Positions 1,953-38,200 of a stretch of DNA of 44,776 bases are shown piece by piece. The notes under the pieces were generated by a model. That model was not told the DNA's origin and made no database searches. It worked only from the letters and a program-made list of their open reading frames with translations. The first letter of the stretch is position 1. The number at the start of each line of letters is the position of its first letter. The translations under genes were made by a program, and so were the position numbers. Origin of the DNA: Bryobacterales bacterium (GTDB lineage: Bacteria; Acidobacteriota; Terriglobia; Bryobacterales; Bryobacteraceae); assembly GCA_016789925.1 (NCBI GenBank), contig JAEUQD010000637.1, forward strand, positions 1-44,776. Direction: 5' to 3'.

Positions 1953-3929
<1,977 letters not shown>

Positions 3930-3933
3930 TACG

Positions 3934-5580
3934 CTATTGGATCACGATGCCGCGCTCTTCCAGCAACTGGCCGGTCTGGCGAAGGAGCGTGATCAGCGCG
4001 CGGCGGTAGTTGATGGACTGGGTGACGACGTTGGCCTGCGCATTCACCAAGTCCTGCTGCGCCTGAATGACGAAGAAGATCGTGGTAACACCGAGGTCGT
4101 AGCGCTTCCGCTCAGCATCCAGCCGCTTCTGGGAAAAGTCCAGGGCTACCTGTGCGAGTTTGACGCTGGCGCGGCTGTTCTCGACTTGGGTCACGGCATT
4201 GAGCACATCCATGCGGATCTGCTGTTCGTTGGCGCGGGCACGCAGCGTGTTCAGCCGCTTTGAGACGACGGCGTCGGCAAGGTCAGCCTGCGTCGCCCGG
4301 TCGCGGAACGGCAAACGGACCTGAATGCCCATGGCGTAGGTAGGGAAGTTGAACCCAAACACCTGGTCCAGGGCGTCACCTATACCTCCCGGCACCGGTA
4401 CGCCGGCGACAACGCCAAGGCCGGTAGTACGCGGAATAAACGTACCGCCACGGCCGTTAGAGGTGTAGTTGCCCGTCAGGCTCACATCCGGTAGCAGAGA
4501 ATTCTTTGCGATTTTGTAGTTGAGGTCGTCGATATCCAACGACTGGAGCGTCGCTTTCAGGTCGGGACGCATGCGGTACGCACTCTCGACGTGCGCTTCC
4601 TTGTCGAGCGGACGGTCGTCGGTGGGCGGCAGGACGGTTTCGGTAAGCGTGATCGGCATACCGCGGAAGGCGGGGTCGAGGTCCGCGCCGATCTGGCGGC
4701 GAAGCTGATCCTCTACTTGCTGCAGGCGGTAGCGGGCCTGCGTGACGGCCACTTCCTGCGTTGCGTAGACCTGCTGCGGCTGATAGATTTCCAGTTCCGA
4801 AATGGCGCCCAGTTCGAGTTCGCGCTGGTTGCGCTTCAGGATTTCCCCGGCGACCTTTAACGCTTCTTCCTGCACGGTGAGGGACTCGCGCGCGCCGATC
4901 ACATCCCAGTAGGTAAACTCCGCCTGCCGGAGCAATTCGAGCAATCGGTCCTGAATCGAATAATCCCCCTGCCGGTAGCGGCTGCGGGCCACCATGATCG
5001 GCAACCGATTGACGTAGGCGCCGCGGTTCCGCATCAGGGGTTGGGTGAAGCCCATGTTGAGGCCGGACGAAAATGCGGGGTTGAACGTCTGGAACGAGTC
5101 GTTTGTGGACGTCTTGGAAGCGTTGAAGCCGACGCGGAGCTGCGTTCCGTTCTCAAACGTCTGGTTGTACAGCGATGTGAACGGCTGATTCAGATTGCTG
5201 ACCGTCGTGGCTCCTTGCAGCAGGTTCGTGGCCGGGTTGTTGGCGCGTGTGGCGTTGAAACCCATCGTCAGAAACGGGTCGAACCGTCCATACGTCCGCA
5301 AGATCCCGTTGCGGAAGGTCTCGATGCTCATGCGCTGGATCTGGATATCGGTATTGTTGGCCAGCACAAGTTCAAGATAGGACCGTAAGGAGAGTTCGAG
5401 CCGGTCGCCGACGGCGAAGTCCTGCAAGCGGACGGGCGGCTGGAGGTCGACACGAGGAGCCTCCCTGCCGAACCACTGCCGGAAGAACGCGTTCTGAGGA
5501 AACTTGGGGGCTTCCATCAACTGCTGAGCGAAGAGGCTCGCAGACACAGTTAGAATGAGTGCAATTTGCAAAAACCGCAT
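3934..5580 (-). CDS. TolC-family outer-membrane efflux protein
   Basis: This is a predicted outer-membrane channel of the outer membrane factor family that connects with periplasmic adaptors. The mature start is set by a signal peptide (MRFLQIALILTVSASLFAQQ) from the ATG at 5580; upstream in-frame starts would run into the permease gene. The 548 residues show the duplicated TolC layout: long helical stretches with E/Q/R-rich heptads (about 200-300 and 420-530) and two beta-strand regions, including FTSLYNQTFENGTQLRVG. It lies 10 bases after the MacB-type permease and four before mutL. With the permease and three adaptors upstream it would form a tripartite envelope-spanning machine. Whether the cargo is a small molecule or a secreted product cannot be read from the sequence. 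Confidence 0.9.
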   Translation of the reverse strand: MRFLQIALILTVSASLFAQQLMEAPKFPQNAFFRQWFGREAPRVDLQPPVRLQDFAVGDRLELSLRSYLELVLANNTDIQIQRMSIETFRNGILRTYGRFDPFLTMGFNATRANNPATNLLQGATTVSNLNQPFTSLYNQTFENGTQLRVGFNASKTSTNDSFQTFNPAFSSGLNMGFTQPLMRNRGAYVNRLPIMVARSRYRQGDYSIQDRLLELLRQAEFTYWDVIGARESLTVQEEALKVAGEILKRNQRELELGAISELEIYQPQQVYATQEVAVTQARYRLQQVEDQLRRQIGADLDPAFRGMPITLTETVLPPTDDRPLDKEAHVESAYRMRPDLKATLQSLDIDDLNYKIAKNSLLPDVSLTGNYTSNGRGGTFIPRTTGLGVVAGVPVPGGIGDALDQVFGFNFPTYAMGIQVRLPFRDRATQADLADAVVSKRLNTLRARANEQQIRMDVLNAVTQVENSRASVKLAQVALDFSQKRLDAERKRYDLGVTTIFFVIQAQQDLVNAQANVVTQSINYRRALITLLRQTGQLLEERGIVIQ

Positions 5581-5590
5581 TGTGTACCGT

Positions 5591-6847
5591 TTATTCGTAG
5601 CGGATGGCTTCAATCGGATCCAACTTGGCAGCCTGCATGGCAGGGTAGATTCCGAACAAGAGCCCGATTCCGACTGAAACACTAAAGGCGACCGCAATGG
5701 ACGATGTGGTTACAACCGTCGACCACCCCGCCGCCGTCGCAATGATCCAGGATAATATAAGACCAAACGCAACCCCGATGGAACCACCGAGGATGGAAAT
5801 CAGCACCGCCTCGGTAAGGAACTGCCGGATAATGTCGGCCTGCCGCGCACCGATGGCGCGCCGGATGCCGATCTCGCGCGTGCGCTCGAGTACGGTAGCC
5901 AACATGATGTTCATGATGCCGATACCGCCGACCAGCAGCGAAATACCGGCGATACAGATCATGACTATGTTGAAGATCGACAGCGTCCGCCGCTTCTGTT
6001 CAAGCAATCCGGCGGGCACGACAGTCGTGAAGTCGCCTGCGTCCTTGTGAGTGGCGGTGAGAATTGCATTGACAACACTGGCAGTTTCCACCGAATCCGT
6101 TCCGGTCGACACCTTGATGTAGATACCGTCGATCTCGTCTTTCAGGTAGCTGTTGTTGTCTTCAAACCGGCGCATGACGGTGTTGAGCGGCGAAATAATG
6201 AGGTTGTTCCGGTTGACGACCTCAAGGCCTTCGACCTCGGTGTCGGCCGAGGCCTGGGGCGCCAGCACACCAACGACCTGCAGCCACGTGTCGTTCACTT
6301 TCACGTACTTGCCGACCGCCGGGTCATAACCCAGCAGGTTTACCTTGGCGGCTTCACCGAGCACACAGACGGGAACCGAGTCGCGGTTCTCCTGGTCGGA
6401 AAACCAACGGCCCTCGATCACCTTGAGGCTCTGGATCTCGAGGTAAGACGGCTCTACGCCGATCAGGACAGGCGGTTCCGCGGCAGTCTTCGGCAGCACC
6501 TTCATGGGTTTGAACCGCTTGCGAGGCGTGAGCGCGGCCAGGCCGGGCACGTTCTCGGAGATGGCCCGGAAATCACGAAAGGTCAAGCCCGGCGACGTCT
6601 GACGGCGTTGCTGTAACTCGTTGCGGTCCGCCGCTTCCTTGGCTTCGATCAGGATGTTGTTGACGCCTAACAAATCGATGGAGGCAATGATATCCTTCTG
6701 CGCGCCGGCGGTGATAGACAACATCGCCACCACGGCGCCGACGCCGAAGATCATGCCGAGCATGGTCAACAAGCTGCGGAGCTTGTGTACCAGGAGGCTC
6801 GTAAGCCCCATCTTCACTTCAGGCAGAATGCCGGAGAGACCACCCAT
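5591..6847 (-). CDS. MacB/FtsX-type ABC transporter permease (no ATPase domain)
   Basis: This 418-residue inner-membrane protein has the MacB/LolC/FtsX layout. One transmembrane helix sits near residues 25-47 (LLTMLGMIFGVGAVVAMLSI), followed by a large periplasmic MacB_PCD domain (about 50-280). Three helices close the protein, with the signature LVGGIGIMNIML, then ERTREIGIRRAIGA and the C-terminal AKLDPIEAIRYE. Such proteins act as mechanotransmitters, driven by a LolD/MacB-type ATPase, that push substrates from the periplasm through TolC. E. coli MacB carries its ATPase as an N-terminal domain, but here it is absent and no matching gene lies in this operon. The ATG at 6847 has an AGGAA upstream. 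The gene lies 11 bases after adaptor 3. Confidence 0.93.
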   Translation of the reverse strand: MGGLSGILPEVKMGLTSLLVHKLRSLLTMLGMIFGVGAVVAMLSITAGAQKDIIASIDLLGVNNILIEAKEAADRNELQQRRQTSPGLTFRDFRAISENVPGLAALTPRKRFKPMKVLPKTAAEPPVLIGVEPSYLEIQSLKVIEGRWFSDQENRDSVPVCVLGEAAKVNLLGYDPAVGKYVKVNDTWLQVVGVLAPQASADTEVEGLEVVNRNNLIISPLNTVMRRFEDNNSYLKDEIDGIYIKVSTGTDSVETASVVNAILTATHKDAGDFTTVVPAGLLEQKRRTLSIFNIVMICIAGISLLVGGIGIMNIMLATVLERTREIGIRRAIGARQADIIRQFLTEAVLISILGGSIGVAFGLILSWIIATAAGWSTVVTTSSIAVAFSVSVGIGLLFGIYPAMQAAKLDPIEAIRYE

Positions 6848-6858
6848 CGCTGTCGTTC

Positions 6859-8841
6859 CTAACCTTTCTTTCCCATTCCCATCGGCATGGCTGGAGCACC
6901 GCCACCGCCGTCGCTCTTGCCGCCCTTCTTCCGGTCGCTCGGCTTGGCTTCGGGATCCTGTAACGCGACATCCTCGCCCGGCTTAAGGCCTTCGGAGATA
7001 ATCATTGTGGATTCACTGCGTTTGAGCGGTTTCACCACACGGGCGACGAACTTTGAGCCTTGCTTCACATAGACAATGTTCTTGCCTTCTTTTTCGAAAA
7101 TGGCTTGGGCGGGGATGTGAATCGCATTCGGAATCTTCTCGACGACGATTTCGACGTCGGCCAACAAGCCGGGGCGCATCAACACCTCTAACTGGCTGGA
7201 TTCTTCCGGCGGAGGCGGAAGTTGCGCCGCATCCAGTTCGCGCTGGCTGAACGTCTGGCCGCTGCTGCCCATTGCCAGTCCGGGCATCCGCGGACCACCT
7301 TGTCCGCGGCGCCCTTCTCCAGTTCCGCCTTCACCCTGTTTGCCTTCCGCGCCGCCTCTGCGCTCCCCTCGCGAGGGCAGTTCAATGCCCGCCTTCTTCA
7401 TCTCTTCGCGCATTTTGCTGAACGCGGTCTGGCGATCTTCCGGGGTCATCTCGGCCGGACTCTTGCCGCCGAAAGCCTTGTCCATAATCGCCCGTGCCTT
7501 TTTCTGCTGTTCGGGAGTGAGATTGGCCAGCATTCCCGACATCATGCCACCCCCTCCTCCGCCAGGAGGGCCGCCTTGGCCACCAGGGCGGAACATTCCC
7601 TGGGGTGGACCACCCGCCCCCGGCATGCCTCCTTGCCCACCTGGCATGCCTCCTTGCGCACCCGGCATGCCGCCTTGTGCTCCCGGCATGCCACCACCGC
7701 CGGCCTGCATCCCGCCCATCCCGCCGCCGCCCATGGCAAACATGCTCACCGGGGTCGCGATCGGAGGGCGCTTGCGATTGGCTTCGGCAGTGGCCATCAC
7801 ACGATCAATCTGCTCCTTGTTCGCGCCAAGCGCCTTCAACAGCTGAGGCATATCCACCGAGAAGAGAACGTCGAACTTCTTCGCCGGATCGGATGAAAAG
7901 ATATTGGCGCTGGCAGTGCCACTCATGGACTTGATCTTTCCGTGCAGGCCTTCGTCCGCGATCGCGTCCAACCGGATGAGTACGTCCTGACCCTCGCGGA
8001 GATTGGCGCGATCCAACTCGCCCACTCGCGCGACCACTTCCAATTCCGACAAATCGAGAATGTCGGCCACGGGCATGCCCGGCTGCAACTGGTCGCCTTC
8101 GCGAATATCGGGCACCTGTTGCCCGAACGTAAAGAACCCGCCGCCACGATTCTGGCGGACGGCCACCAGCCCGCTCATCGGCGCAAGAAGCTTCACCTGT
8201 TGGAGACGCATCTTCTCGCGATTCAACTCCAGCACGGCTTTGTTCTTGCGTTCCCGTAGTACAGCCAGTTCCGCCTGGGCCTGCTCGCGCCGGCTCTTGA
8301 TGTCGCTCTCCAACTGTGTCAGACGCCGTTTGGCTTCTTCGAGCGACAGTTCGTTGCGCTTGGCGTCGATGGCCGAAATGAGTTCGTTCCGTTTCACCTC
8401 CAGTTCAGCTCGGCGAACCTGATACTTGGTGCGGAGTAGCTCAACCTGGTCCTGGTTGTCACGGATATTCAGGTCGGCCTGAGCCTTCTTCATCTGCTCG
8501 TCGACCTGCTCGATCTCGAGTTCTTTCTCCTCCAGGCGGGAAAGCAATTCGGAATCGTCAAACTCGGCAATCAAGTCTTTTTCCTTCGCGAAAGCGCCGA
8601 GCGCGGCCAATTTCGTAACCTGCACGGTGCCAAACAGGTTGGGGGCCGTGAGTGTGGCCGTACGGACGGCCCGTAGTTCGCCGCGGGAAAACGTCTTTAC
8701 AATGACATCGCCCTGCCGAACCTTGGTAGTGGGGAGTTGCGCCAACTTTTGCTGAGGAATAGCCTTGTAGGCCGTGTAGCCGCCCCAGGCGGCAGCAGTC
8801 ACAACCAGCACGATCACTAATCGGGAAAGAAGCTTCTTCAT
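6859..8841 (-). CDS. Periplasmic adaptor protein 3 (HlyD/MacA-like) with Met/Gly-rich insert
   Basis: This 660-residue membrane fusion protein has an N-terminal anchor (about 5-22), a first lipoyl half at about 60-95, a long alpha-hairpin at 95-215, a second lipoyl half with LLAPMSGLVAV near 218-227, a beta-barrel at about 260-335, and a membrane-proximal domain from about 551 (LEVLMRPGLLADVEIVV). An insert of about 215 residues (336-550) interrupts the barrel/membrane-proximal region. It contains Gly/Met repeats (GGMPGAQ) at 366-440, a helical segment with LTPEQQKKARAIMDKAF at 441-485, and a Gly/Arg-rich stretch. The C-terminus is again Met-rich (APAMPMGMGKKG). A GTG one codon upstream (8844) is an alternative start. 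The typical family length is 350-450 residues, so the insert explains the size. Confidence 0.9.
   Translation of the reverse strand: MKKLLSRLVIVLVVTAAAWGGYTAYKAIPQQKLAQLPTTKVRQGDVIVKTFSRGELRAVRTATLTAPNLFGTVQVTKLAALGAFAKEKDLIAEFDDSELLSRLEEKELEIEQVDEQMKKAQADLNIRDNQDQVELLRTKYQVRRAELEVKRNELISAIDAKRNELSLEEAKRRLTQLESDIKSRREQAQAELAVLRERKNKAVLELNREKMRLQQVKLLAPMSGLVAVRQNRGGGFFTFGQQVPDIREGDQLQPGMPVADILDLSELEVVARVGELDRANLREGQDVLIRLDAIADEGLHGKIKSMSGTASANIFSSDPAKKFDVLFSVDMPQLLKALGANKEQIDRVMATAEANRKRPPIATPVSMFAMGGGGMGGMQAGGGGMPGAQGGMPGAQGGMPGGQGGMPGAGGPPQGMFRPGGQGGPPGGGGGGMMSGMLANLTPEQQKKARAIMDKAFGGKSPAEMTPEDRQTAFSKMREEMKKAGIELPSRGERRGGAEGKQGEGGTGEGRRGQGGPRMPGLAMGSSGQTFSQRELDAAQLPPPPEESSQLEVLMRPGLLADVEIVVEKIPNAIHIPAQAIFEKEGKNIVYVKQGSKFVARVVKPLKRSESTMIISEGLKPGEDVALQDPEAKPSDRKKGGKSDGGGGAPAMPMGMGKKG
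7522..7746 (-). repeat. Met/Gly-rich tandem repeat inside adaptor 3
   Basis: Within adaptor 3 (about residues 366-440) four GGMPG units, separated by AQ, AQ and GQ, are embedded in a Gly-rich tract with about 12 methionines. At DNA level this is a GC-rich imperfect repeat with period 21 bases around 7620-7700. The following LTPEQ...MTPEDR segment (7387-7521) resembles the LTPEQ motif of Spy/CpxP-like periplasmic proteins. Met-rich tracts in periplasmic proteins often bind Cu(I) or Ag(I); that link is inference here. Confidence 0.75.
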
Positions 8842-8853
8842 CACAGATCCGCC

Positions 8854-10158
8854 TTACAGTTTCTTGGCGCGCTTGGCGGCATCGATGGGATTTTCCAGAT
8901 ACACCGTCTCGCCTTCCTTCAGCCCATTGACAACGACGATGTCCGTGTCGTTGCGCCTGCCTACTTCAATCTGCCGGATCTGGTAGCCGGCGCCACGTTG
9001 AATATACACGCTCGGCTTCCCACGATGGACAAAGCTGGCGCGCGCCGGGATCATCAGCGCGTTTGCCTGGCTTTCGATCAGGATTTCCGCGCTGGCGCTC
9101 ATTCCAGGGCGCAGCCGCGGGTCGACGCTCTTCAACGTGGCGCGCGCCGGAAAGCTCTTCTCCGTGGACCCGAAGCCGCGGAACTGGAGCGCCGCGATGG
9201 GACTGATCCAGTCCAGGTCCGCCTCAATCTCCTTATCCGGCAGGGCGTCGATTCGGACGCGGACCTTCTGCCCCAACTGCATCTTGCCGCGGTCCACCTC
9301 GTCCAGCTTCATCTCAACGCGCATGGAGGTCAGATCCGGAATTTCGGCAATCGCCGCACCGGTCCAGGCGCGATCACCCTCCTTGAAGGGCGGAGGTGAA
9401 GAGCCGAAGGATCCGGACGCGCGGAAATTGGGCAAAATATTGACAATGCCGCTGATGGGCGCACGAACCACCAATTTCGACAAATAGCTCTTGGCGCGTT
9501 CCAGATCGCGCAAGGTCTTTTCCTTCTTCTGCTGCAAACGGTCCAGGTCGGCCTCTTGGGAGATCTTGTGAGCTCCGATTGTAGTGTTGACCTGACCAAG
9601 CTCGCCCTGCGAAACGCCAACGTCGATGCGGCTCTTGGCGCCTTCGATCTCGGAAACCACTTCCGCCTTGCTTGCTTCCAGCTTGGCTCGCTCCACGTTG
9701 TACTCGGACGTCATTTTATTCATGCCGTCCATTTCATTGACAATACGGTGCGACGCCTTGGTTTGGACGATCTCGCTATCGACAGTGCGGACGCTGGTGG
9801 ACCGGTCGAGATAATACTGCTCCTGCTGCGCCGTGTCGAACTCAATGACGATTTCACCCTGGTTGACGGCCTTGCCGGATTCGAAGAGCTTCGTGATCTT
9901 CGGGTCGGGCACCTGGGGCGCAGCCAGAATCTTCGAGTTGGTGCTGCGAATTTCACCACGCGCTTTCACGCTGATAACGAACTCAGCGCGGCGAACACGC
10001 GCGGTTGGAATCTCCACTACGGTCTTAGCCGAGTAGTGATAGGCGGCATAAGCGCCGCCGCCCGCCAGAAGTACCAGGGAAGCGATGATGATGCCCTTTC
10101 TGGCACGAGACTGGCCGGCCTGCCCCAGCCGCTGTTTCGGCTTTAAATCCTTCGACAT
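8854..10158 (-). CDS. Periplasmic adaptor protein 2 (HlyD/MacA-like)
   Basis: This 434-residue adaptor is the most regular of the three. A basic cytoplasmic tail (residues 1-21) precedes a single membrane helix (about 22-42). A first lipoyl half follows around 68-108 (EIRSTNSKILAAP... GEIVIEFD), then an alpha-helical hairpin at about 110-228. The second lipoyl half has VVRAPISGIVNIL near 235, then a beta-barrel (TSMRVEMKLDEVDRGKMQLGQKVRVRID) and a membrane-proximal domain ending GLKEGETVYLENP. In MacA-like adaptors the hairpin contacts TolC and the membrane-proximal part contacts the MacB periplasmic domain. The ATG at 10158 lies six bases after the stop of adaptor 1. Its function is inferred from family and operon; the substrate is unknown. 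Confidence 0.92.
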   Translation of the reverse strand: MSKDLKPKQRLGQAGQSRARKGIIIASLVLLAGGGAYAAYHYSAKTVVEIPTARVRRAEFVISVKARGEIRSTNSKILAAPQVPDPKITKLFESGKAVNQGEIVIEFDTAQQEQYYLDRSTSVRTVDSEIVQTKASHRIVNEMDGMNKMTSEYNVERAKLEASKAEVVSEIEGAKSRIDVGVSQGELGQVNTTIGAHKISQEADLDRLQQKKEKTLRDLERAKSYLSKLVVRAPISGIVNILPNFRASGSFGSSPPPFKEGDRAWTGAAIAEIPDLTSMRVEMKLDEVDRGKMQLGQKVRVRIDALPDKEIEADLDWISPIAALQFRGFGSTEKSFPARATLKSVDPRLRPGMSASAEILIESQANALMIPARASFVHRGKPSVYIQRGAGYQIRQIEVGRRNDTDIVVVNGLKEGETVYLENPIDAAKRAKKL

Positions 10159-10164
10159 ATTGAC

Positions 10165-12018
10165 TTAAGTCTCCCGACCGGCGCGCCGCGCCCAGCCACT
10201 GTACGCGCTCTGCTTCTTGTCCACGTTCGCTTCCGCGGGCACCTCCAGCGAAATCACTTCGCCGGCTTTGAGCCCGCTCTTCACGATGACGTGGGTGAAA
10301 TTCTCGACGCCCAATTCCACTTCCCGCCGGGACCAGGCTCCCTTCGGGCCCTGCACCAACACGTATGGTTTCGATATTTTTCCATCCCGGCCGGTGTCGG
10401 AAAAGACCGCCTCGCGGGGCACAATCGCGTCCGCCTCGGATTCTTCCAGAATCACGTCACAGCTTACCGACAGATCAGGAATCACGCGAGGATCCATTTT
10501 GTCCAAACGCAACGCAACGCCCAATTCCTTGACCCAATCCGGTCTGGACCGGCTTGGTTTGCCTACGCTGCCGACCGAATAAATGTGGGCCGGCAGTTCG
10601 AGGTCGGGGAAAGCATCGAAGCGGACCCGTGCCCGCTGTCCGATTCGCAATCTGCCCACATCCACCTGGCTGACGGTGGCGTTGATCACCATCGAACTGG
10701 GATCGACAATCTGCATGAACATCTGGCCCGGATACACTTGGTCACCGACCTTGATCTGGTCGAATTCCGAACCTCGAAAGACGTTCTGCATCACCACCAG
10801 CCCATCGATGGGCGCCTTCATCAACATTCGATTGGCGTTGGCCTCCGCGCGCTGCAGTTCCAGTTTGGACTGCTTGATCTGCAATTCCGCCACTCGCCGG
10901 TCCGCCTTCAGCCCGATGTCCACAAACTTCACTTCCTGCTGGAGCTGCTTGTAACGGGCCTGCGCCTCTTCGAGCGCCAGCCGCCTTCGCTCGGCATCCA
11001 TGGCCGACAACACGGGGAGAGTCTTCATTTCGAGAAGCGCCTTGTCCAGGTCGGCCTTAGCCACTTCGATGGTCTGGGTGTGCGCCTTCTTGCTGACGTC
11101 AAGATTCGCTTCCAACTGTTTGAAGCTCGCTTCGGTTTGGAGGACGCTGGAATTGTAATCTTCCAGGCGCAGTAGCATGTATTGGCGGTCGAACTCAGCA
11201 ACTGCATCGCCCTTCTTCACGAGTGAGCCTGGCTTAGCGGCATCCTGCAACACGAGCATGAACTCGCCGCCACCACCGCCACCGCGTCCACCGCCGCCGC
11301 CACCGCCACCGCTGCCGCCGATGCTGGGCGGACCCTGCGAGCCACCAGGCAAACTGCTCGCCGTCGAGCCCAGATCGCCGCCGGAAGATCCCGCCGTAGT
11401 GCGCGACGTAGACCTGCTGGCGGATGATGTGGTCCGGCCAACGCGGCTGGTAGCCGACCGCATCGCCGAAGCACCGCGCGAGGCTTGTAACCCGCCGCCC
11501 GCCATCGAGGCGCCGGCGTCACCGCTGCCGCCCGCCCCACCCGGCGAGGCCGCGGCGCTAGTGGAGGCGATGGCGCTGGCCGACGAGCCCGATCCCGAAG
11601 AGCCACTAGAGGAACTGGAACTGCCGCTGCTGCTCCCGCCACCCGAGGATCCGCGATTTCCACCGGAACTGAACGAGATGCCGTCGCGGCCACTGCCGCT
11701 CCGGCTGCCGCGCAACCGGGGGGTGAGCAGCGCCGCTGCCTTGGCCGCGGCGGTGGAACCAGTCAAGCGCAAGGTGCGATCCAGTTTCCCCCCGCGCACC
11801 GTGTGGGTTCGGACACTGGCCTGCACCGCAGCCTGTTCCGTCTGGGCTTGGCTTTGGCGGTACCACAAATATCCAGCTACAGTCGCCACCACCACGCCCA
11901 GCAGGATGATCCATCCATAGCGCCGGGGCTCCGCCGCTTTCGGGGCCTTAACCGGAGCAGCTACAGGCGTTGGAGGCGCCGCACTTGGACTCGGCAAAGT
12001 CGTTTTCGGGAGTTGCAT
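10165..12018 (-). CDS. Periplasmic adaptor protein 1 (HlyD-like) with Ser/Gly-rich insert in the lipoyl domain
   Basis: This is the first gene of the export operon, 617 residues. A Pro/Ala-rich cytoplasmic tail (1-32) precedes a membrane helix (about 34-53). The first lipoyl strands (LRLTGSTAAAKAAALLTPRLRG, about 83-104) are cut by a Ser/Gly-rich low-complexity insert (103-251) and resume at EFMLVLQDAAKPGSLVKKGDAVAEFD. A long alpha-hairpin follows (about 280-405), then LMKAPIDGLVVMQ, a barrel (MVINATVSQVDVGRLRIGQRARVRFD) and a membrane-proximal domain ending GLKAGEVISLEVP. The ATG at 12018 is preceded by AAGGAC, a fair ribosome-binding site. The 134-bp gap upstream is the only sizeable space before this operon, so the operon promoter is expected there. 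Confidence 0.9.
   Translation of the reverse strand: MQLPKTTLPSPSAAPPTPVAAPVKAPKAAEPRRYGWIILLGVVVATVAGYLWYRQSQAQTEQAAVQASVRTHTVRGGKLDRTLRLTGSTAAAKAAALLTPRLRGSRSGSGRDGISFSSGGNRGSSGGGSSSGSSSSSSGSSGSGSSASAIASTSAAASPGGAGGSGDAGASMAGGGLQASRGASAMRSATSRVGRTTSSASRSTSRTTAGSSGGDLGSTASSLPGGSQGPPSIGGSGGGGGGGGRGGGGGGEFMLVLQDAAKPGSLVKKGDAVAEFDRQYMLLRLEDYNSSVLQTEASFKQLEANLDVSKKAHTQTIEVAKADLDKALLEMKTLPVLSAMDAERRRLALEEAQARYKQLQQEVKFVDIGLKADRRVAELQIKQSKLELQRAEANANRMLMKAPIDGLVVMQNVFRGSEFDQIKVGDQVYPGQMFMQIVDPSSMVINATVSQVDVGRLRIGQRARVRFDAFPDLELPAHIYSVGSVGKPSRSRPDWVKELGVALRLDKMDPRVIPDLSVSCDVILEESEADAIVPREAVFSDTGRDGKISKPYVLVQGPKGAWSRREVELGVENFTHVIVKSGLKAGEVISLEVPAEANVDKKQSAYSGWARRAGRET
11266..11712 (-). repeat. Ser/Gly-rich low-complexity insert in adaptor 1
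   Basis: About 149 residues (103-251 of adaptor 1) are dominated by Ser, Gly, Ala and Arg, ending in an almost pure Gly tract (GGSGGGGGGGGRGGGGGGEF). The frame is open and both flanks continue the lipoyl fold, so it is an in-frame insertion rather than a frameshift artefact. It is likely disordered. Confidence 0.8.
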
Positions 12019-12152: not shown

Positions 12153-13808
12153 CTATTGCTTTCTGACCAGCACCCAGGGATCCGGCCCGCCGACTTGGGC
12201 CACGATCGTCCACCCCTGCTCGTGGTGCCTCGACAGCCACTCTTTGATCGATGCTTCGGCCAGCGTCGCCGCGTCCCAATAGGCAGCCTGAATTCCCCGT
12301 GTTTGCAAGAACTTCTGAAGATCCCCAGAATCTATCTCAGCCCGCAGTGCGTAATAATATGCGCCCTGGCACGGCGGGCCTCCCCGAGCGATGTAGTTGC
12401 ACACCTCCGTTGCCAGATCGGGCGCGATCAGTTTGAGACCACTCAATTCGGCCCGGTGTGGCAGAAGGCGGCGATACATGGTCAGCAAGGGACGCTGGGG
12501 GAATCTTTCGGGCTGGTAGTAGGCCGGCATGGCCGCCACAGCCACCAGCGCGAACACGGGTGCGCCGCGGTTGAGCGCAGTGCCCAAGCCCAGGCGGCTG
12601 GCCAGGCTCCGAACAGCGAACCCGGTACCCAACATCAGTAGAAGCTGGAGTGGAAACAGGTACGAGGCCCTGGGGCGGTAGGTCACGAGGACGACCGCGC
12701 TGGCAGCAATCAGAGCGCCAGCCAGGACCGAGAAAGTCCAGTGGGTCCGGACGGCGGCAGCGGCTTCCCGTCGGCCGCGGTATAGCAACCAGCCGCCGGC
12801 CAGCCACAAGATCGCGATCGCCCCCAGGTACCAGTGCGCGACTCGCGTCCTGACCACCGGTACGTAGTCCGGGTTGCGGGTAAAGGAAGTCTGACTGAAC
12901 AGCAGAACCTCGATACCCGCCGGAATCAGCTGAATATTCCACCAGTAATGTTCAGCCATCGCCCGCCAGTTCCGAAGTACCATTTCGGCAGCGGAGGGCC
13001 GGGTCGTGCCGAACTGCTCCTGCAACAGTCCGGAGCACTCTAAGGTCGGCGATCCAGTCCATTCCGGATGGCGCTCCTGGTAGCCGCCGGCGAAATTCTG
13101 GCAGTTGTTGAGGGCGCGCTTGTCGTCGAAGGCCACGCGGAGTTCCGGGTATGTCAGCGCGGAACGTGTCCAAGCCATGCCCAGCAGCGCAAGCGTCGCG
13201 AACAGGGCGGCGGCGTAGGGTCGCCACGCACGCTTTCTTACCACATCCTGCCAGACATACATGGCGCCCGCCACCACCGCCGCGATACCATACTCCTGTC
13301 GCTGCAGCAGGGCCCAGACGAAGAGCAAGGCGAGGATCGTAGCCCTGCCCGCGGCGCCGGGATAGCGCAGTGAGATCCACAATGCGGCCACAGGCCCGAG
13401 GGCCGAGAATAGGTGCACTTCATACACCGTGTCGAACAGCACCGGTTCGAACACCCACCAGGCACTGACCAGAACCGCAATCCAGGGCGGAAGGCACCGG
13501 GCAAGCACGGAGCCGGTTAGAACACCCAAAACTAACAAAGTGATCACACGAGTGCCCACGGCAACCAGAAGCGCATCGCCGGTTTGGCCGTACAACGCGA
13601 GGGAAAGAGCGGTATAGAGCGGCGACCACACCAGGTCGAACCGGCCATCGGCCGCCGCCCGCTCCATCCCGGCGAAGTAGTAGGATGTATCGCCCGGTGT
13701 CAGGTCGCGATAGTGCAGAATACCCCGTAACCGGACCAGTTGCATCGCAACCACCACCGCGGGGAGTGCCCATGGCTGCTCAAACAGGTGACGAAGGCGC
13801 GACAACAT
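12153..13808 (-). CDS. Multi-pass membrane protein, GT-C glycosyltransferase-like
   Basis: This 551-residue protein has roughly 10-12 hydrophobic segments over residues 10-440 and a soluble C-terminal domain (about 440-551). An early acidic loop (DLTPGDTSYYFAG, near 35-47) fits the Asp-containing first loop of GT-C lipid-linked sugar transferases. The C-terminal part (LIAPDLATEVCNYIARGG and later TRGIQAAYWD) resembles periplasmic ends of such proteins. I recognise no finer family. The ATG at 13808 lies 36 bases after the rho stop, and no strong ribosome-binding site is seen. It may be co-transcribed with rho. It could supply sugars to an envelope glycan or a glycoprotein; that is inference. 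Confidence 0.72.
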   Translation of the reverse strand: MLSRLRHLFEQPWALPAVVVAMQLVRLRGILHYRDLTPGDTSYYFAGMERAAADGRFDLVWSPLYTALSLALYGQTGDALLVAVGTRVITLLVLGVLTGSVLARCLPPWIAVLVSAWWVFEPVLFDTVYEVHLFSALGPVAALWISLRYPGAAGRATILALLFVWALLQRQEYGIAAVVAGAMYVWQDVVRKRAWRPYAAALFATLALLGMAWTRSALTYPELRVAFDDKRALNNCQNFAGGYQERHPEWTGSPTLECSGLLQEQFGTTRPSAAEMVLRNWRAMAEHYWWNIQLIPAGIEVLLFSQTSFTRNPDYVPVVRTRVAHWYLGAIAILWLAGGWLLYRGRREAAAAVRTHWTFSVLAGALIAASAVVLVTYRPRASYLFPLQLLLMLGTGFAVRSLASRLGLGTALNRGAPVFALVAVAAMPAYYQPERFPQRPLLTMYRRLLPHRAELSGLKLIAPDLATEVCNYIARGGPPCQGAYYYALRAEIDSGDLQKFLQTRGIQAAYWDAATLAEASIKEWLSRHHEQGWTIVAQVGGPDPWVLVRKQ

Positions 13809-29113: not shown

Positions 29114-29209
29114 TCTTAATCTCCCATCTTACTCTCGATTTAACGCCCCAACCAAACAATCCTTGAGCATTTGTCGCCCGTGCGCGCACTCCCTTTCAGG
29201 GGAACTCGC

Positions 29210-32200
29210 ATGCGCGTCACCCTGTCCCTTGTCTTACCGATGTTTTCCGTGGCTCTCGCCGCGCAGCAATTCAGTCTTTCTCCGCCCAATCTACTCCTCC
29301 AGCACGATTCCCTGTCCCACTCCGTCCGTAACTCCGTGACCCTCCCTCCCGGTTACTTTGGCGTGTCGCAAACGGCCACGTCTTCCGCCGTCTTCGTAGC
29401 CGCTTATACAGTCGCGGAAAACAAGTACGATGCCGCGCTGCTTTCGTTTGACGCAAACTCGCTCACCCTCAACTTCAAAGCCTCGTTCCCGCTCCCCGGC
29501 AATCAGTACCCCGCGAGCCTGGCGTCTGCCGCCGATGGTACCTTTACGTTGACGGTCTACTCCGACGCGACCCGGCCGTCCAGCCTTCTCTATCTTCGCC
29601 TCGATGCGCACACAGGCGCCCTGCTCGGAGTCACCCCTTCCGACCCCCAAGGTCTCCCTCTTCCCTCCCTGCTTCCGCTGCCCAACTCACTCCCCGGCGA
29701 ACCATCCCTCGCCGCCGCGAAGATGCTGGAACGTAGAGAAGCCAGTGAGAGTTCCCCCGCGCCACCGTCGGTCACGTTTTGTGTTCCGGCTTCCGACCCA
29801 ACCCCCGCCGACTGCGATACCGTCCTCGCCGAGGACCCCGTCACGCCAGGCGCGCTCGCCGGGCGCACGCCGCTCATCCTAATCCACGACGCCTGGGCCA
29901 CCCCTTCCCTCTCCACACTCGACCGCTCCTATTGGAGTTCGTTGCTCGGCGCATTCGCCGCTACACCCCAGCTCCTCACACGCTATAAGGTATTCCGGTT
30001 TCACTACGTTACTGGTCAGCGCAACGTCTGGGATCTCGCCCGCTCCCTCCGCAACCATCTGGACGCTCTCATCTTCAACCAGCCGGAATACGACACCCAG
30101 TTCACTCTGATCGGCCACGGGCTAGGCGGACTACTGGCGCGGTCCTACATGGATCACCACTGGCATTGGTCCGGACCCGCATCCAGCGTCTGGCGCGCGC
30201 GCCGCGCCGGCGAGCGGGTCCTCTGGGCAATCACCCTGGCCACGCCGCACAACGGCACCCCGCTTTTCACCTCCTCCTCCCTCGCCGCCCAAGGCGTCAC
30301 CGCCGGTTTCTGGAGTGCCAGGGGCTGCCTGAATTGCGCCAACTTGGCCGACTATGCCAATGGTCTTGCAATTTCCCCGGCTTTCGATCACAAGGTGATT
30401 GCCTATTGGGGGTATATCGATACCAATTCCGCCGTCGCGACGCTGGCGCGCGCATCACAGGCGGAGCTCGCCGCCGCGGGCAGCATCGAGGCCTCCGGCA
30501 TCGCGCTCGAACGCTTGCTGACAAACAATCGCAGTCATGCTAACGCCCAATTGTCGCTCGCCAACGATGGCTATATCCCAGGTACGAGCGCCGCTTTCGA
30601 TCTGCGTAGTCCCGCCAAGCGAGTCGCCTGTCCCAATCATGACCATACGCTCATGCTGTATGGCTCCACGGCGCTCTGCTCATCCGGCGTGCCCCTGTTG
30701 AATTCCGTCCTCGCCGACCTCGGAACGCCAAACGGCGCCATCACGCCGTCCACGCCCCCTCCCGTCATGCCCTACACGCCGCCCCCCGGTTGTAGCTACA
30801 CCCTGGCCCCCGCCGCCGCAAGTCATTCGTATAACTCCGCCACCAACGCCGTCACCGTAACCACTACCGCCGGGTGTAGCTGGCATGTTCAGTCTCATGC
30901 TCCCTGGATCTCGATTACCGCCACGTCGGCCAATTCCTTCACGTATCTCATCGAGACCAATGGCGGCGCGTTCCCCCGGTTCGGCCTCGTCTCGGTAGGC
31001 GGCAGTCCTTTCTACATTGCGCAGGACTCCGTCACCGGCGCGTGTGTCTACGACCTCGATCCCAATTTCCGGACCTACTCCAGTTCTGCGATTTCCGGCA
31101 TCATCACGGTCCTGTCACCCTCCAGTTGCTCCTGGACTCCGGCGTCCGATTCCCCTTGGCTATCCGTCTCGACCACGTCACTGCAAACCGGCACGAAGGC
31201 CCTGACGGTCACCGGCTCCTCCAACACGTCGGGCCAGCCGCGCTTCGGGGCTGTCCGCATCACCCCCGCTTCCGGCGCTCCACTCCTCGCGCAGATCGCC
31301 CAGGATGCGTCCGCCTCTCCCTGCTCATACTCCCTTTCCTCGTCCGCCACCCGGATCTCGACCAGCGGCGGCACGGGCTTGTTCGCAATCCAGACCACCG
31401 GTTCCTGCTCATGGTCCGCTGCCGCATCCGATTCCTGGATCGCCCTTTCCTCCAGCGCCTCCGGCACCGGCTCGGCCAACATCTCCTTTTCCATCCAGGC
31501 CAACACTTCGTCGTACCGCCGCTTCGGCACGATAGCGATTCTCGCCGGGAACGTCTCACTGAGCCATCAAATCGCACAGGAAGCCGCTACCGCGCCGGCT
31601 CCTTCCATTAATGTCCCGTCCACTTCCATCTCCTTTGGCAACTCTCTCGTCGACCGTACTACCTACCAAGCCGTCGCGGTCCGCAACACCGGCCAGGGGA
31701 CTCTCTACCCGGCTGGCGTCAACCAGGTCTCCGGCAGCCTCGGCTACCAGGTGGAAACGCCCCTCACTCCCAGTCCCGCGGGGGGATCGGTTTACTTCGT
31801 TCTGTCCTACACTCCGGGTGGCCAGGTATCGCAGAGCGCCATTTTCCGCCTGACCTCCAACGACCCTGCCGAAGGAACCATCGACTTGTCGTTGAGCGGT
31901 ACCGGCATCGGCGCAGCCGCCGGCAACAATCTCATCGTCGCTCCGTCCACCATCAGTTTCGGGGAGGTGCCCACCGGCGTTGTAGCCGAAATCCCGCTCA
32001 CCATTCAGAACCGTGACGTCACGCCTCTCAATCTCACCTATACCTGGACCCAATCGGGCGACTTCCGGGTGCTGAACGCGCCTACCTCACTGGCCGTGAA
32101 CGCCGCCGCAACACTGCGTCTGCGCCTGCTGCCCACCTCCACCGGCGTCAAGTCCGCAACATTCCGGGTGACTTCGAGTGGAACCGGCACACCCTCCTAC

Positions 32201-35200
32201 GACGTCACCATCTCCGCCACGGCGGTTGCGCCGACCGCGGCCAACATTCAAACCGTCCGCACCATTTCGCTCTCCGGTTCGGGTACGCCCGCGCGCCTCA
32301 CCATCCGCTCGGGCCGTGCCTTCATCAGCCGCAACAATCCCGCTGGACTGTCCATCGTCGACCTCGCCGCCGGAGCAGTCTCGGCCAACATCCCCATCAG
32401 CACCTATTCCACCGCTTCCGCCGGCCAACCCGCCGTCGGCGCCGCCCGCGCTTTTGTCCCTCTCTCGAACCTGGGTTCCAACGGTCAGGTCGCCGTCTTC
32501 GACCTCAATACGAATACACTCCAGCAGTACTTCGCGGCGGGAACCGATCCCCATGGCGCCGTTGTTGTCGATAACCAGCTTTGGATATCCAATGCCAATT
32601 GCCCGGCCTCGTCCGGCCTCTCGCTGGTCAGAGCCTTCGACGCCACGACGCTGGTCCCCCAATCCAGCCAACTGGCGGGACGCGTCTCCGCCTGGCTCGC
32701 CGCCGACACCGATACGCGCCGCATTGCCGTCGCAAACACAGGATGTGGCTCGCCCGCACCCGCCGCCGGTGCGTCGTTCATCGACCTCAATTCCAATCTC
32801 CTGCTGCAAACCCGCGACCTCCGGCCATCACCCAACTCGGTCGCCATCGCCGGGGGCAAGGCTTACTTCAATACCGGCCAATCGGTCGAAGTGGTGGACC
32901 TGTCCTCGTTTGCCACCGTCGCTTCCATTCCGATTCCTGAATCCTCCCATGGCATCGCCTCCACCGGCGGCCACGTGTTTACGGCGTCTGGAGGCGTGGT
33001 CACCGTCATCAGCACCGCCACCCATCGCGTGATCGGGACCGTTTCCGTTCCCGGGGCACTTGCGTTGGCCGCGGATACTGCGTCCGCCACGGCATACGCC
33101 GTCACGTCTAATTCCCTCGTGGGAGTCCGGGTTCAGCAGCCTTCCTTCGACTTCTCTTGCGCCGCGCCCGCCCTGTTTGGTCCCTCCACCACCTGCTCCG
33201 TTTCCCCGCTTGACGGGTTCTCTTCCCCAATCAGCCTCACCTGCGCCAGCGTCCCCGGTGTGTCCTGCCTGTGGTCGCCCTCCACGATCGCCGCGCCCGG
33301 GACGGCAACCCTGACCGTCACGCCGTCTTTGCTCTCGCCCGGCCACTATCCGCTCCTGGTGCAAGCGTCCGGGGGCGGCGTCTCCCGGTCCGCCACTCTG
33401 TCCCTCGTGTTGCCGACCTGTTCCTTTACCGTCACCCAGGGAACCCATGGATTCACAGGCGCGGGCGGTTCGAGCTTGGTCGAAGTCCAGTCGCCGGCCG
33501 GTTGCGCCTGGGTCGCGGCCTCGAACGCATCCTGGATCACTATCACGTCCGGCAGCGCGTACTCCGGCAACGGAACTGTCGCCTTTACGGTTGCCGCGAA
33601 TCCGGCGGCATCGGCCCGCAGCGGCACGCTCACGGTGGCCGGGCAGACCATCACCGTGGAACAGCAAGCCGCCGAGTGCAGCTACCAGCTCAATCCGACA
33701 TCAGTCACCGTGGCCGGCACAGGCGGCGCGGGCTCCGTCAGCCTCACCGCCTCCGTGTCCTCCTGCGCCTGGAACGCTGTCTCCAACAATCCTTCCTGGC
33801 TAACCTTGACATCCGCCTCGTCCGGTACTGGCCCCGCGACGGTGGCGTTCTCGTTCACCGCAAATCCGTCCACATCCCTGCGCCAGGGCAGCCTCACCAT
33901 CGGCGGCGTCACCTTTCCGGTCACCCAAAGCGGAGCTTCCTGTACGTTTACGCTCAATCCGGGCAACGCCGGCTTTGGAGCCGCAGCCCAGACTGGAAGC
34001 GTCACCCTCACGGCATCCAGCGCGGGTTGCCAGTGGACCGCCTCCTCCGGCGCACCCTGGCTCAGCATCACGTCGCCCACGTCCGGCACAGGATCATCCA
34101 CTGTTCTATTTAGCGTCGCGGCGAATCCGGAACTTGCCGCCCGCTCGGGCACCCTCACCATTGCCGGCCAGGCCTTTACTGTCAACCAGGACGCCGCCAC
34201 CTGCGCCTTTACCATCAATCCCTCCAGCGCCTCGCTCAACAACCAGGCCAACACCGGTGCGGTATCGGTCACCGCCACCCCAACCGCCTGTAGCTGGACC
34301 GCAACCTCCAACGCCGGTTGGCTGTCGATCCTGTCCGGATCCTCTGGTACTGGGAACGGCTCGGTGAGCTACAGCGTCCCCGCCAACCCCGACGCCACAC
34401 CGCGCAACGCCGTCCTCACCGTGGCTGGACAGGCGTTCCCGGTCACCCAGGCTGGCAGCGACTGTTCCTTTACGCTGTCGCCCACCAGTTCCGCACCATC
34501 CGCCGCTGGCGGGTCCTTCAGCCTCAACGTGCAAACCTCGCATGCGTCCTGCGCGTGGTCGGCCGTCTCCAACTCCCCCTGGATCACCATCTCGTCTCCA
34601 GCCTCCGGAACCGGCAGCGGCACGGTCTCCTACACGGTGGCCGCGAACCCTGGCCTCACCGAACGTATCGGTTTCCTCGTCGCCGGCGGGACTGAGTTTC
34701 GCGTCACCCAGGCCGCCGATACCTGCCGTTTCACTGTGACCCCCCTCAGCCTCTCATTTGACGCCAATACGCATTCCGGCTTCATCGCCGTCAGCGCGTC
34801 CCACAGTGCTTGCACCTGGACGGCTTCCAGTCCGGCGCCCTGGGCCGTCATCACTTCGGGCGAATCCGCCACCGGCAGCGGAAACGTCGCCATCACCGTA
34901 GCGGTCAACAGTACCACCCAGGCGCGAACCGCCAACCTGGCTGTCGCCGGGAACACTGTTCGCGTCGATCAGGACGGCTTGGCTTGCGCCTTTAGCCTCA
35001 GTTCGGAAAGCGCGGCCGTCGATCCGCTCGGTGGAACCCTTTCCGTCAACGTGCTTGCCAACACGAGTGGCTGCCTTTGGACGGCGGCGTCCAATGCCGC
35101 CTGGATTACCGTTGCCGGTGGCTCGGGCTCCGGCAATGGCTCAGCGTCCTTCAGCGTAGCTCCCAATCCGAACCTCGTCGAACGCACGGGCACACTCACC

Positions 35201-38200
35201 ATTGCCGGGCGTACCTTTACCGTCACGCAGGCAGCCCTCGCCTGTGCCATCTCGTTGTCGCCATCATCGCAGTCCGCCTCGCACGCGGCCGGCAGCGGGA
35301 CCCTGTCAATTACGGCAAACCACCCTGGCTGCGCTTGGACCGCCTCCAGCACCCAACCTTGGCTCACCCTCGCTCCGCCCTCCTCCGGGTCGGGATCGAG
35401 CTCGCTCAATTTCTCCTTCACCTCCAACTCCGCTCCCGCCGAGCGGCAGGCCGCCATCAGTGTCTCCGGCCAGAGTTTCGTCCTCACCCAGGCGGCGGCC
35501 CCTTGCACGTACACGCTATCGCCGCAATCCAGCCAAAATGTACCGGCTACGGCCGGCTCTAGCTCGGTTTCGGTTGTGTCCTCCAACTCCGCTTGCTCTT
35601 GGACAGCCACTTCACCGGCCGGCTGGGTCACCATCACTGCCGGCGCTTCCCACACCGGTTCCGGTCCGGTCGGTTATTCCTTCACTGCCAACCCCACCAC
35701 GAATCCCCGCTCGGTAACCCTCACGATAGCCGGCCTCCCGTTTAACGTCGTCCAGGCGGGCGCCTGCTCTCTCACCCTCGCCCCCCCGTCCAATAGCGCT
35801 CCTAACAGCGGCGGGGATTACACTGTGGCCGTGACGGCGTCCAGCGCCGGTTGTGCCTGGACGGCGTCACCATTGCACGACTGGGTCACCCTCATCTCCC
35901 CTGCGGCCGGTGCCGGAAATGGCACTGTCAGCTACCGCGTCGCCGCCAACCCTGGTGCGGCGTCCCGGACCTCCCACCTCACCGTCGGCGACCAGTTACA
36001 TACCATCGTGCAGGCCCCGGCTAGCTGCGTATTCTCGCTACCATCCGGCGGCGCGTCCTTCAGCGCACCGGCCACGACCGGAAGTTTCTCCCTGAGCGCC
36101 TCCGGCGCCTCCTGCCCGTGGACAGCCGCGAGCAGCGCAGGCTGGATCACGTTAACATCACCTGCCTCGGGGACCGGCGGTGCCACAATCTCCTTCTCTC
36201 TCACCGCAAACCCCGACACCACAGCGCGCACCGGTTCCATCACTGCGGGCGGGCAGTCTTATAGCATCACGCAGGGTGGCGCAAACTGCTCCTTCACCCT
36301 GGCGCCTTCCAGCCAGTCCTTCGGCGCGGAAGCCGCCACCGGAAGCGTCGTGCTCAGCGCGGGCTCTTCCTCCTGCCCGTGGACCGCTACTTCCAACGCA
36401 CCCTGGATTACGTTGACCTCCGCGCCTTCGGGAGCCGGCAGCGGCTCAGTCTCTTTCTCGGTGGCCGCCAACACCGATCTCCAGCCACGCTCCGGGACCA
36501 TCTCCATCGCCGGCCAGACATTCCAGATCGCCCAGACCGCCGCCGCGTGTAGCTACTCGATTCAACCCGCCAGCGGCTCCTATCCTCCCGCCGGGGGAAC
36601 CTTTACGGTGAATGTCTCCACCTCCCCGGCGAGTTGCCCCTGGACGGCTTCCACCCCCACGCCCTGGATTTCCGTCACATCCGGCGCAAGCGGCGCCGGA
36701 CCCGGCTCGGTCGGGTTCTCTCTCGGCATCAACACCGCTCCCGCCCCCCGTTCCGGCTTGCTCACAATTGCCGGAAAGACATTCCACGTCACCCAACAGG
36801 GCGTTAACTGTCAGTTCACGGTGACGCCACTGCTCTTACAGCACTCTTCGGGAGGCGGCTCCGGCTCTATCGATGTCAACGCCAGCAGCCCCTCCTGCTC
36901 CTGGTCGGCCGTCGCAAACGATAATTGGATCTCGTTGACTCCGCCGCTCTCCGGAATTGGCTCCGCCAGTATCGCGTACACCATTGCCAGCTACTCCGGA
37001 CTCTCGGGGCGAAGTGGTTCCCTTAGCGTCGCCGGCTCCACCATCAGCGTGAATCAGTCCGGAGTGCAGTGTGGGCTCACGCTCTCCGACGACACCGCCT
37101 ATGCCGGCGCGGGCGGTGTCTCTCAAACCGTTCAGCTCACCCTGACGCACGGCGCTTGCCCGTGGACGGCCGCCAGCGATGCAAGCTGGTTAACCATTAC
37201 CTCCGCCTCCAGCGGAACTGGGTCGAGTTCCCTCGACTTCTCCGTCGCGCCGTTGCCCTCGCAAGGCGCCCGCACCGCCCACCTCACCATCAATGGCGAG
37301 ACCTTGACCGTCGACCAGTTCGGCATCTCACAGCCCGGCCGTACACCGACTGCTGTCTTCCGCCACACCTCTGGAGGAATCGCCGTAGCCTCCTATGCTT
37401 CCTCTTCCTTCAAACTGAACGGGGGGGTCTTCGGCGGTGAACCCGCCTCCGCGCAAGACTCTCTCGGCAATACTTACTTTGCCTCTCTCGACCGGCACGG
37501 CGGCGCATACGCGAATACTTTCCTGGCGGCGTCGAGTTCCTGGGCGCAGTTGCGTTTCGGTGGCGGTAATTTCCAGGGCGATTTGAGTCTTACGGTCACT
37601 CCCAACGGCACGGTCTTCGTAGCCGGCCGCGACCGCTGGCGGGGCTACTGGGCAACCACGTTCAGCACGGCGGGCGGCTTTGCGCCCTGGACCAGGCTCG
37701 GCGGCGTCTTCGACACCGATCCCTCGATTGCCGCCTCCCCCGACGGTTCGGTTTACGTCGTTGGGCGTGACACCTGGGGCGGCCTCTGGGCCAATCGGTT
37801 CGTACCGGATTCCGGCTGGCAAGGCTGGACTTTCGGCGGCGGCGTAGTCAGCGGCAAGCCCTCCGTCGCGGTCGGAACCGATGGCGTCGCCTACGTCGCC
37901 GTCCGCGACTATTTCGGCAGTGTGTGGATGGCGCGCCTGCGCCACCGGCGCTGGCTCAATTGGTCCTTCGGAGCCGGCAGCGGTCTCTCCAGCGACCCCA
38001 CAATCGTCGCTAACGGCACGGGCACCGTCTACGTGGTAGTCCGAACTTTTGGCGGTAGCGTCTATTACCGTGGCTTCACCGAAGGCACGCCCGCGGGCTG
38101 GCATCCCTGGGTGGATGCCGGCGGCGTGCTGGCAGTCGCCTCGGCGGCCGGCTCCTCCGGTGAGCTCTACGTCTTCGGACGCGATCCCACGGGCAACCAT

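Follow-up and report, generated by a model that had tools for sequence, protein, structure and literature searches.

We have identified a five-gene export operon in which three different adaptor genes, A, B and C, are combined with one MacB-type permease gene and one TolC-type gene, and in which no ATPase is encoded. It lies in a 44,776-nucleotide stretch (the window) of contig JAEUQD010000637.1, from the assembly GCA_016789925.1 of a Bryobacterales bacterium of the phylum Acidobacteriota. The ATPase-less block is conserved across the order and the class, and our comparisons support the view that the adaptors are ancient and non-redundant and belong to one permease. On balance, we favor reading the five genes as a single MacAB-TolC-like exporter with a mixed adaptor hexamer and an ATPase acting in trans. 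No earlier description of three adaptors with a MacB-type permease was found in the open-access literature.

An initial, sequence-only reading of the window had recognized three complete and distinct adaptors, one permease and one TolC-type protein, with gaps of 6-12 bases between their genes. All five genes were confirmed on the minus strand (Table 1), with intergenic gaps of 6, 12, 11 and 10 bases in the order A, B, C, permease, TolC. Because the permease gene begins 11 bases after that of adaptor C, no ATPase domain is fused to it or hidden upstream. ATG 5580 is the most likely start of the TolC-type gene; the start at 5697 returned by the open reading frame (ORF) tool would overlap the permease gene. 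Its product matched the TolC family model, but under the cut-off. The adaptors are 27-31% identical to one another over their aligned parts and are therefore not recent copies, as the initial reading had maintained; this identity and their ancient clades led us to reject recent duplication. The arrangement is far beyond chance, since it recurs in dozens of genomes.

The permease aligned end to end with the membrane and periplasmic part of MacB (PDB 5lil/5gko/5nik; E=1e-68), and the NCBIfam MacB equivalog model was matched only from position 258, i.e. behind its ATPase part. Scores of 130 bits against the model for ADOP permeases (TIGR03434; cut-off 622.3) and 41 bits against the lolCE model (cut-off 362) place the protein in neither the ADOP nor the LolC/LolE type, and as a MacB-type permease it is not a resistance-nodulation-division (RND) transporter of the kind found in TriABC-type pumps. 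In MacB, the major and minor coupling helices contact the ATPase (PMC5985334). The coupling-helix residues (approximately E321-A334) and a C-terminal DPIEA.RYE motif were nearly invariant in 20 permease sequences, down to 52% identity. The permeases of multi-adaptor loci, including that of the window, form one group with a Shimodaira-Hasegawa-like approximate likelihood ratio test (SH-aLRT) support of 97.

Orthologs of the permease with 66-96% identity were found in most of 61 relatives. Conservation of the block was judged where the contig was long enough, and operons without A were treated separately. The order A-B-C-permease, usually followed by TolC, recurred without a MacB-type ATPase gene in the operon at 40 loci and at the Acidobacteriota loci of a genome scan. 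A second operon lineage, in which permease identity falls to 52-59%, has the same gene order and shorter adaptors. In the phylum sample of 297 genomes, about 70 carry this permease type, and a MacB-type ATPase gene was absent from the operon at all Acidobacteriota loci examined, the Aminicenantes locus excepted. Three-adaptor loci with a separate ATP-binding cassette (ABC) gene and three membrane fusion protein (mfp) genes, in the order ABC-mfp-mfp-mfp-permease, occur in Shewanella, Psychrobium and Aminicenantes. The sequence-only reading had proposed searching relatives for the same gene order, and had regarded an ATPase fused to the permease of close relatives, or adaptors each paired with a permease of their own, as evidence against it. 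The block does recur, ATPase-less, across order and class; no close relative has a fused ATPase, so that local loss of one was rejected, and no adaptor with its own permease was seen. An ABC gene beside the permease at locus L280 was likewise rejected as a MacB-type partner, being of the ABC-2/drug-export type. Other ATPase-less clusters were noted in passing. Loci L083 and L086-L113 (Bacteroidota, Zixibacteria) consist of a single adaptor, a permease of the same superfamily and TolC with no ATPase gene nearby, and loci L294 and L300 (genomes G040 and G047) combine an adaptor, a TPR-type protein, a MacB-type permease and a TolC-type protein.

In a quick adaptor tree with SH-aLRT support only, positions 1, 2 and 3 formed separate clades of 20 Acidobacteriota sequences each (SH-aLRT 99, 99 and 100), which included both operon lineages, and the gene order A, B, C was always the same. 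The positions again formed clades (97, 96 and 95) when the loci of Shewanella, Psychrobium and Aminicenantes and two further Acidobacteriota loci were considered. The trios of a planctomycete (L143) and of a member of the Bacteroidota (L085), one genome each, grouped with their own relatives, which suggests that they arose by independent triplication.

The three adaptors also have hairpins of equal length. Measured from the alignment, the spacing between the lipoyl Asp and the "AP"-motif Pro is 126 residues in all three adaptors of the window, and the same value was obtained in nearly all Acidobacteriota sequences at all three positions. Within other trios the spacing is again uniform (127 in all three adaptors of the Shewanella group, 126 in those of L085 and 162 in those of L143). 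It ranges from 68 to 280 in the single adaptors of MNP loci and from 96 to 152 in adaptors beside the unlinked ATPase described below. Equal hairpins fit a mixed ring: if a ring is to dock on a single TolC, all of its hairpins must reach the same height. AlphaFold2 models of A and C (mean predicted local distance difference test scores of 75.5 and 78.1) are those of full adaptors with a transmembrane (TM) helix, a long alpha-hairpin and strand-rich adaptor domains, and the top Foldseek match for each was MacA of MacAB-TolC. In A, the TM helix spans residues 39-65 and the hairpin 279-397, and a Ser/Gly-rich insert (approximately 107-250) is disordered. Adaptor B, assessed from its sequence, has no large insert, and its best PDB profile matches are to MacA (4dk0, 9qgy and 5nik). 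The insert of C (approximately 331-555) has Gly/Met-rich tracts around a confident helical LTPEQ-type module (443-483); this region, at window positions 7100-7850, weakly matches Metal_resist (Spy/CpxP-like), and the motif occurs in few orthologs only.

Adaptor A was also traced outside the operon. In seven genomes of family f3 and in G008, the operon reads B-C-permease-TolC, and all eight of these genomes have an A-type adaptor gene at other sites (1-4 copies; 390-457 bits); two further f3 genomes, G044 and G053, have A in the operon plus another copy elsewhere. No permease or MacB-type ATPase was present in the gene cluster of the free-standing copies fetched. Such copies, up to four per genome (L326-L341; e.g. 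G040:C1:1409682, 3220406 and 4806009), have no transporter genes in their clusters. Among 20 genomes lacking the permease, none had adaptor A: 19 scored at most 112 bits, and the 210 bits of G204 came from a distant tandem trio. This distribution indicates that A belongs to the pump even when it is unlinked.

In MacAB-TolC, six MacA protomers stand on a MacB dimer so that three MacA contact each MacB, and of the three membrane-proximal domains per MacB the Porter subdomain carries one and the Sabre two (PMC5985334). A ring of six adaptors around a dimer would thus offer three distinct adaptor positions, a point of geometry by which an RND trimer would offer two, in keeping with the two adaptors of TriABC. 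We propose that the adaptor ring is a mixed hexamer, (ABC)2, containing each adaptor twice and in a presumed order, and that each of the three non-equivalent positions per permease monomer has its own gene. The ring would sit on a permease homodimer and dock onto a TolC-type trimer, and a periplasmic substrate would presumably be pushed through it by mechanotransmission. The positional clades, the identical hairpins, the co-occurrence of A with the permease and the three contacts per MacB monomer are best accommodated by such a mixed hexamer, one of two arrangements that the sequence-only reading had raised. More tentatively, the ring may be strictly ordered as (A-B-C)2 to match the two-fold symmetry of the permease dimer; its ATPase would serve other permeases in trans as well, and paralogs could take the place of A. 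Trios of apparently independent origin, such as those of the planctomycete, the Bacteroidota and the Acidobacteriota/Shewanella group, would be expected if the fit of a dimer within six adaptors dictates the number three.

The other arrangement raised initially was one of exchangeable adaptors, in which a single permease-TolC core would take homohexameric rings, made of A, of B or of C according to the substrate or the conditions. What stood of it concerns A, the only adaptor found free-standing and multiplied: several f3 genomes have 2-4 copies of it, while B and C remain with the permease. We consider exchangeable rings unlikely, given that all three positions are kept in the same order in both lineages, which is unexpected for alternatives under different selection, and that A accompanies the permease in the genome even where the two are unlinked. 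The mobility of A also bears on a reading in which B and C form a fixed ring core and A is a plug-in position for alternative paralogs, giving one pump several specificities. Its variable Ser/Gly insert and the wider divergence of its orthologs (27-67% identity, against 28-88% for B) would suit that role, although in the window's family A is usually found within the operon, and we regard this reading as rather unlikely. Adaptor promiscuity is known for some pumps, and the three adaptors might accordingly serve transporters elsewhere in the genome and merely be clustered here; co-occurrence with the permease, the fixed order and the lack of a permease beside free-standing A make this very improbable. 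It is also very unlikely that the module is no longer driven by ATP and serves as a conduit that is passive or powered in some other way. That idea draws on the lack of a MacB-type ATPase gene in the examined Acidobacteriota operons outside Aminicenantes, but the motifs for contact with the nucleotide-binding domain are invariant, an ATPase gene is retained by relatives in other phyla, and a MacB-type ATPase that is unlinked and has no permease beside it occurs almost throughout the phylum.

Under the mixed-hexamer reading, ATP would be hydrolyzed by a separately encoded MacB-type ATPase acting in trans, whose identity can be proposed from the distribution of such genes. A profile built from the ATPases of the three-adaptor loci that carry a separate ATPase gene was used for the search. 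Most Acidobacteriota genomes tested gave one clear top MacB-type ATPase, usually in an mfp-ABC pair without a permease, and it was found in 255 of the 297 sampled genomes; its best PDB match is 5xu1. This phylum-wide ATPase is the best candidate partner and has a representative in the window's own genome (Table 1). The initial statement that the system has no ATPase thus holds for the operon and fails for the genome, which contains this unlinked gene without an adjoining permease. Since the ATPase is nearly universal, its co-occurrence with the permease across the phylum is uninformative. In G059 and G138 the candidate gene is accompanied by two or four permeases that belong to another group (L181, L264); in the window's family, the relatives of these permeases occur as pairs that lack an ATPase. 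The near-complete f3 genomes G040 and G047 lack that permease pair at the threshold used, yet keep the ATPase and the three-adaptor operon. Its place beside other permeases in the former and its retention without the pair in the latter indicate that the candidate ATPase is probably shared among permeases. A second MacB-type ATPase clade of the Acidobacteriota (support 100/97; L194 in G059, L197 at G000:C844 and L047 in G021) is found in some genomes next to permeases of ADOP size and may act in trans for the ADOP family. As it adjoins ADOPs in G059 (L194), it more likely serves them and is less likely to be the partner of the pump. One member of the window's family, G009, has at least 150 FtsX permease domains, mostly in ORFs of 800-1000 amino acids (aa), the size of ADOPs.

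Several observations weigh against the proposed pump and its ATPase. The candidate ATPase occurs in genomes without the operon and, in G059 and G138, with other permeases, and so cannot be dedicated to the pump. The adaptor adjoining it differs in hairpin length, and its grouping with the ATPases of three-adaptor loci is weak (84/84); an exclusive clade of the two was neither rejected nor shown (approximately unbiased test, p=0.27). The spacing of 126 is shared by many of the single adaptors at Bacteroidota MP loci, so that equal hairpins may partly be inherited. Finally, the genomes in which A and the permease co-occur are related, and the counts of 8 and 0 of 20 do not amount to 28 independent events.

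The system resembles MacAB-TolC of E. coli (5nik, 9qgy) in its MacB_PCD and FtsX permease, its TM-anchored MacA-like adaptors and its TolC-type protein. In MacAB-TolC, however, the adaptor is a single homohexamer and the permease is fused to its ATPase, whereas the present system, known from its genes, has three adaptors and no fused or linked ATPase. TriABC-OpmH of P. aeruginosa offers a parallel to the mixed ring proposed here, as a single pump whose two dedicated adaptors, TriA and TriB, are not redundant and differ in role (PMC13328181), but it is built on an RND transporter with two adaptors rather than an ABC-type permease with three. The loci of Shewanella, Psychrobium and Aminicenantes have the same permease group (97) and three adaptors in positional clades; they differ from the window in having an ATPase gene in the operon and a hairpin spacing of 127 instead of 126, and no published work on them was found. 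YknXYZ and Spr0693-0695 also have the ATPase on its own polypeptide (PMC5985334), but with one adaptor, an ATPase gene adjoining the permease and no TolC. The ADOP orphan permeases are FtsX/MacB-type, without a neighboring ATPase and from the same phylum, yet they are duplicated permease units of about 800 aa, while the window permease is single (418 aa). The multitask ATPases MsmK and MsmX show that one ATPase can serve several transporters in trans (PMC7658222); these are sugar importers, in contrast to the MacB-type export system and putative partnership proposed here.

Around the operon, mutL lies directly downstream and is the same neighbor at L032, L035, L038-L040 and L042-L045; it is a conserved neighbor in the family and is not thought to be part of the pump. 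Upstream, between the pump and rho, positions 12153-13808 encode a probable membrane protein of 551 aa without a Pfam match. An ABC ATPase at 371-1180 was rejected as a pump partner, because it looks like the ATPase of a Wzm/Wzt-type polysaccharide-export pair, whose membrane partner would be the protein encoded at 1125-1901. A 3038 aa ORF at 29171-38287 with many BACON-type domains is probably a giant surface or secreted protein.

Table 1. Genes of the export operon, its downstream neighbor and the candidate ATPase (domains from Pfam)
Feature	Position	Strand	Description
Adaptor A (position 1 of 3)	10165..12018	-	617 aa; HlyD_3 and HlyD_D23
Adaptor B (position 2 of 3)	8854..10158	-	434 aa; HlyD_D23 and HlyD_3
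Adaptor C (position 3 of 3)	6859..8841	-	660 aa; HlyD_D23 and weak Metal_resist; HlyD_3 also assigned
MacB-type permease	5591..6847	-	418 aa; MacB_PCD and FtsX
TolC-type outer membrane factor	3934..5580	-	548 aa; OEP, E=3e-39
mutL	1953..3929	-	Directly downstream of the TolC-type gene
Candidate ATPase, window's own genome	G000:C683:712-1449		Adjoining adaptor cut by contig end

Since MacAB-TolC uses six identical adaptors, genetics cannot tell apart the roles of the three contact sites on each of its permease monomers. If each site has its own gene in the operon described here, each role would become testable by deleting or swapping one gene. To our knowledge, the sharing of a motor in trans has so far been known for sugar importers. 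Should the candidate ATPase act in trans on several permeases, a single motor might power a number of MacB-type export systems in this dominant soil phylum, and the abundance of ATPase-less permeases in Acidobacteria would have a possible explanation.

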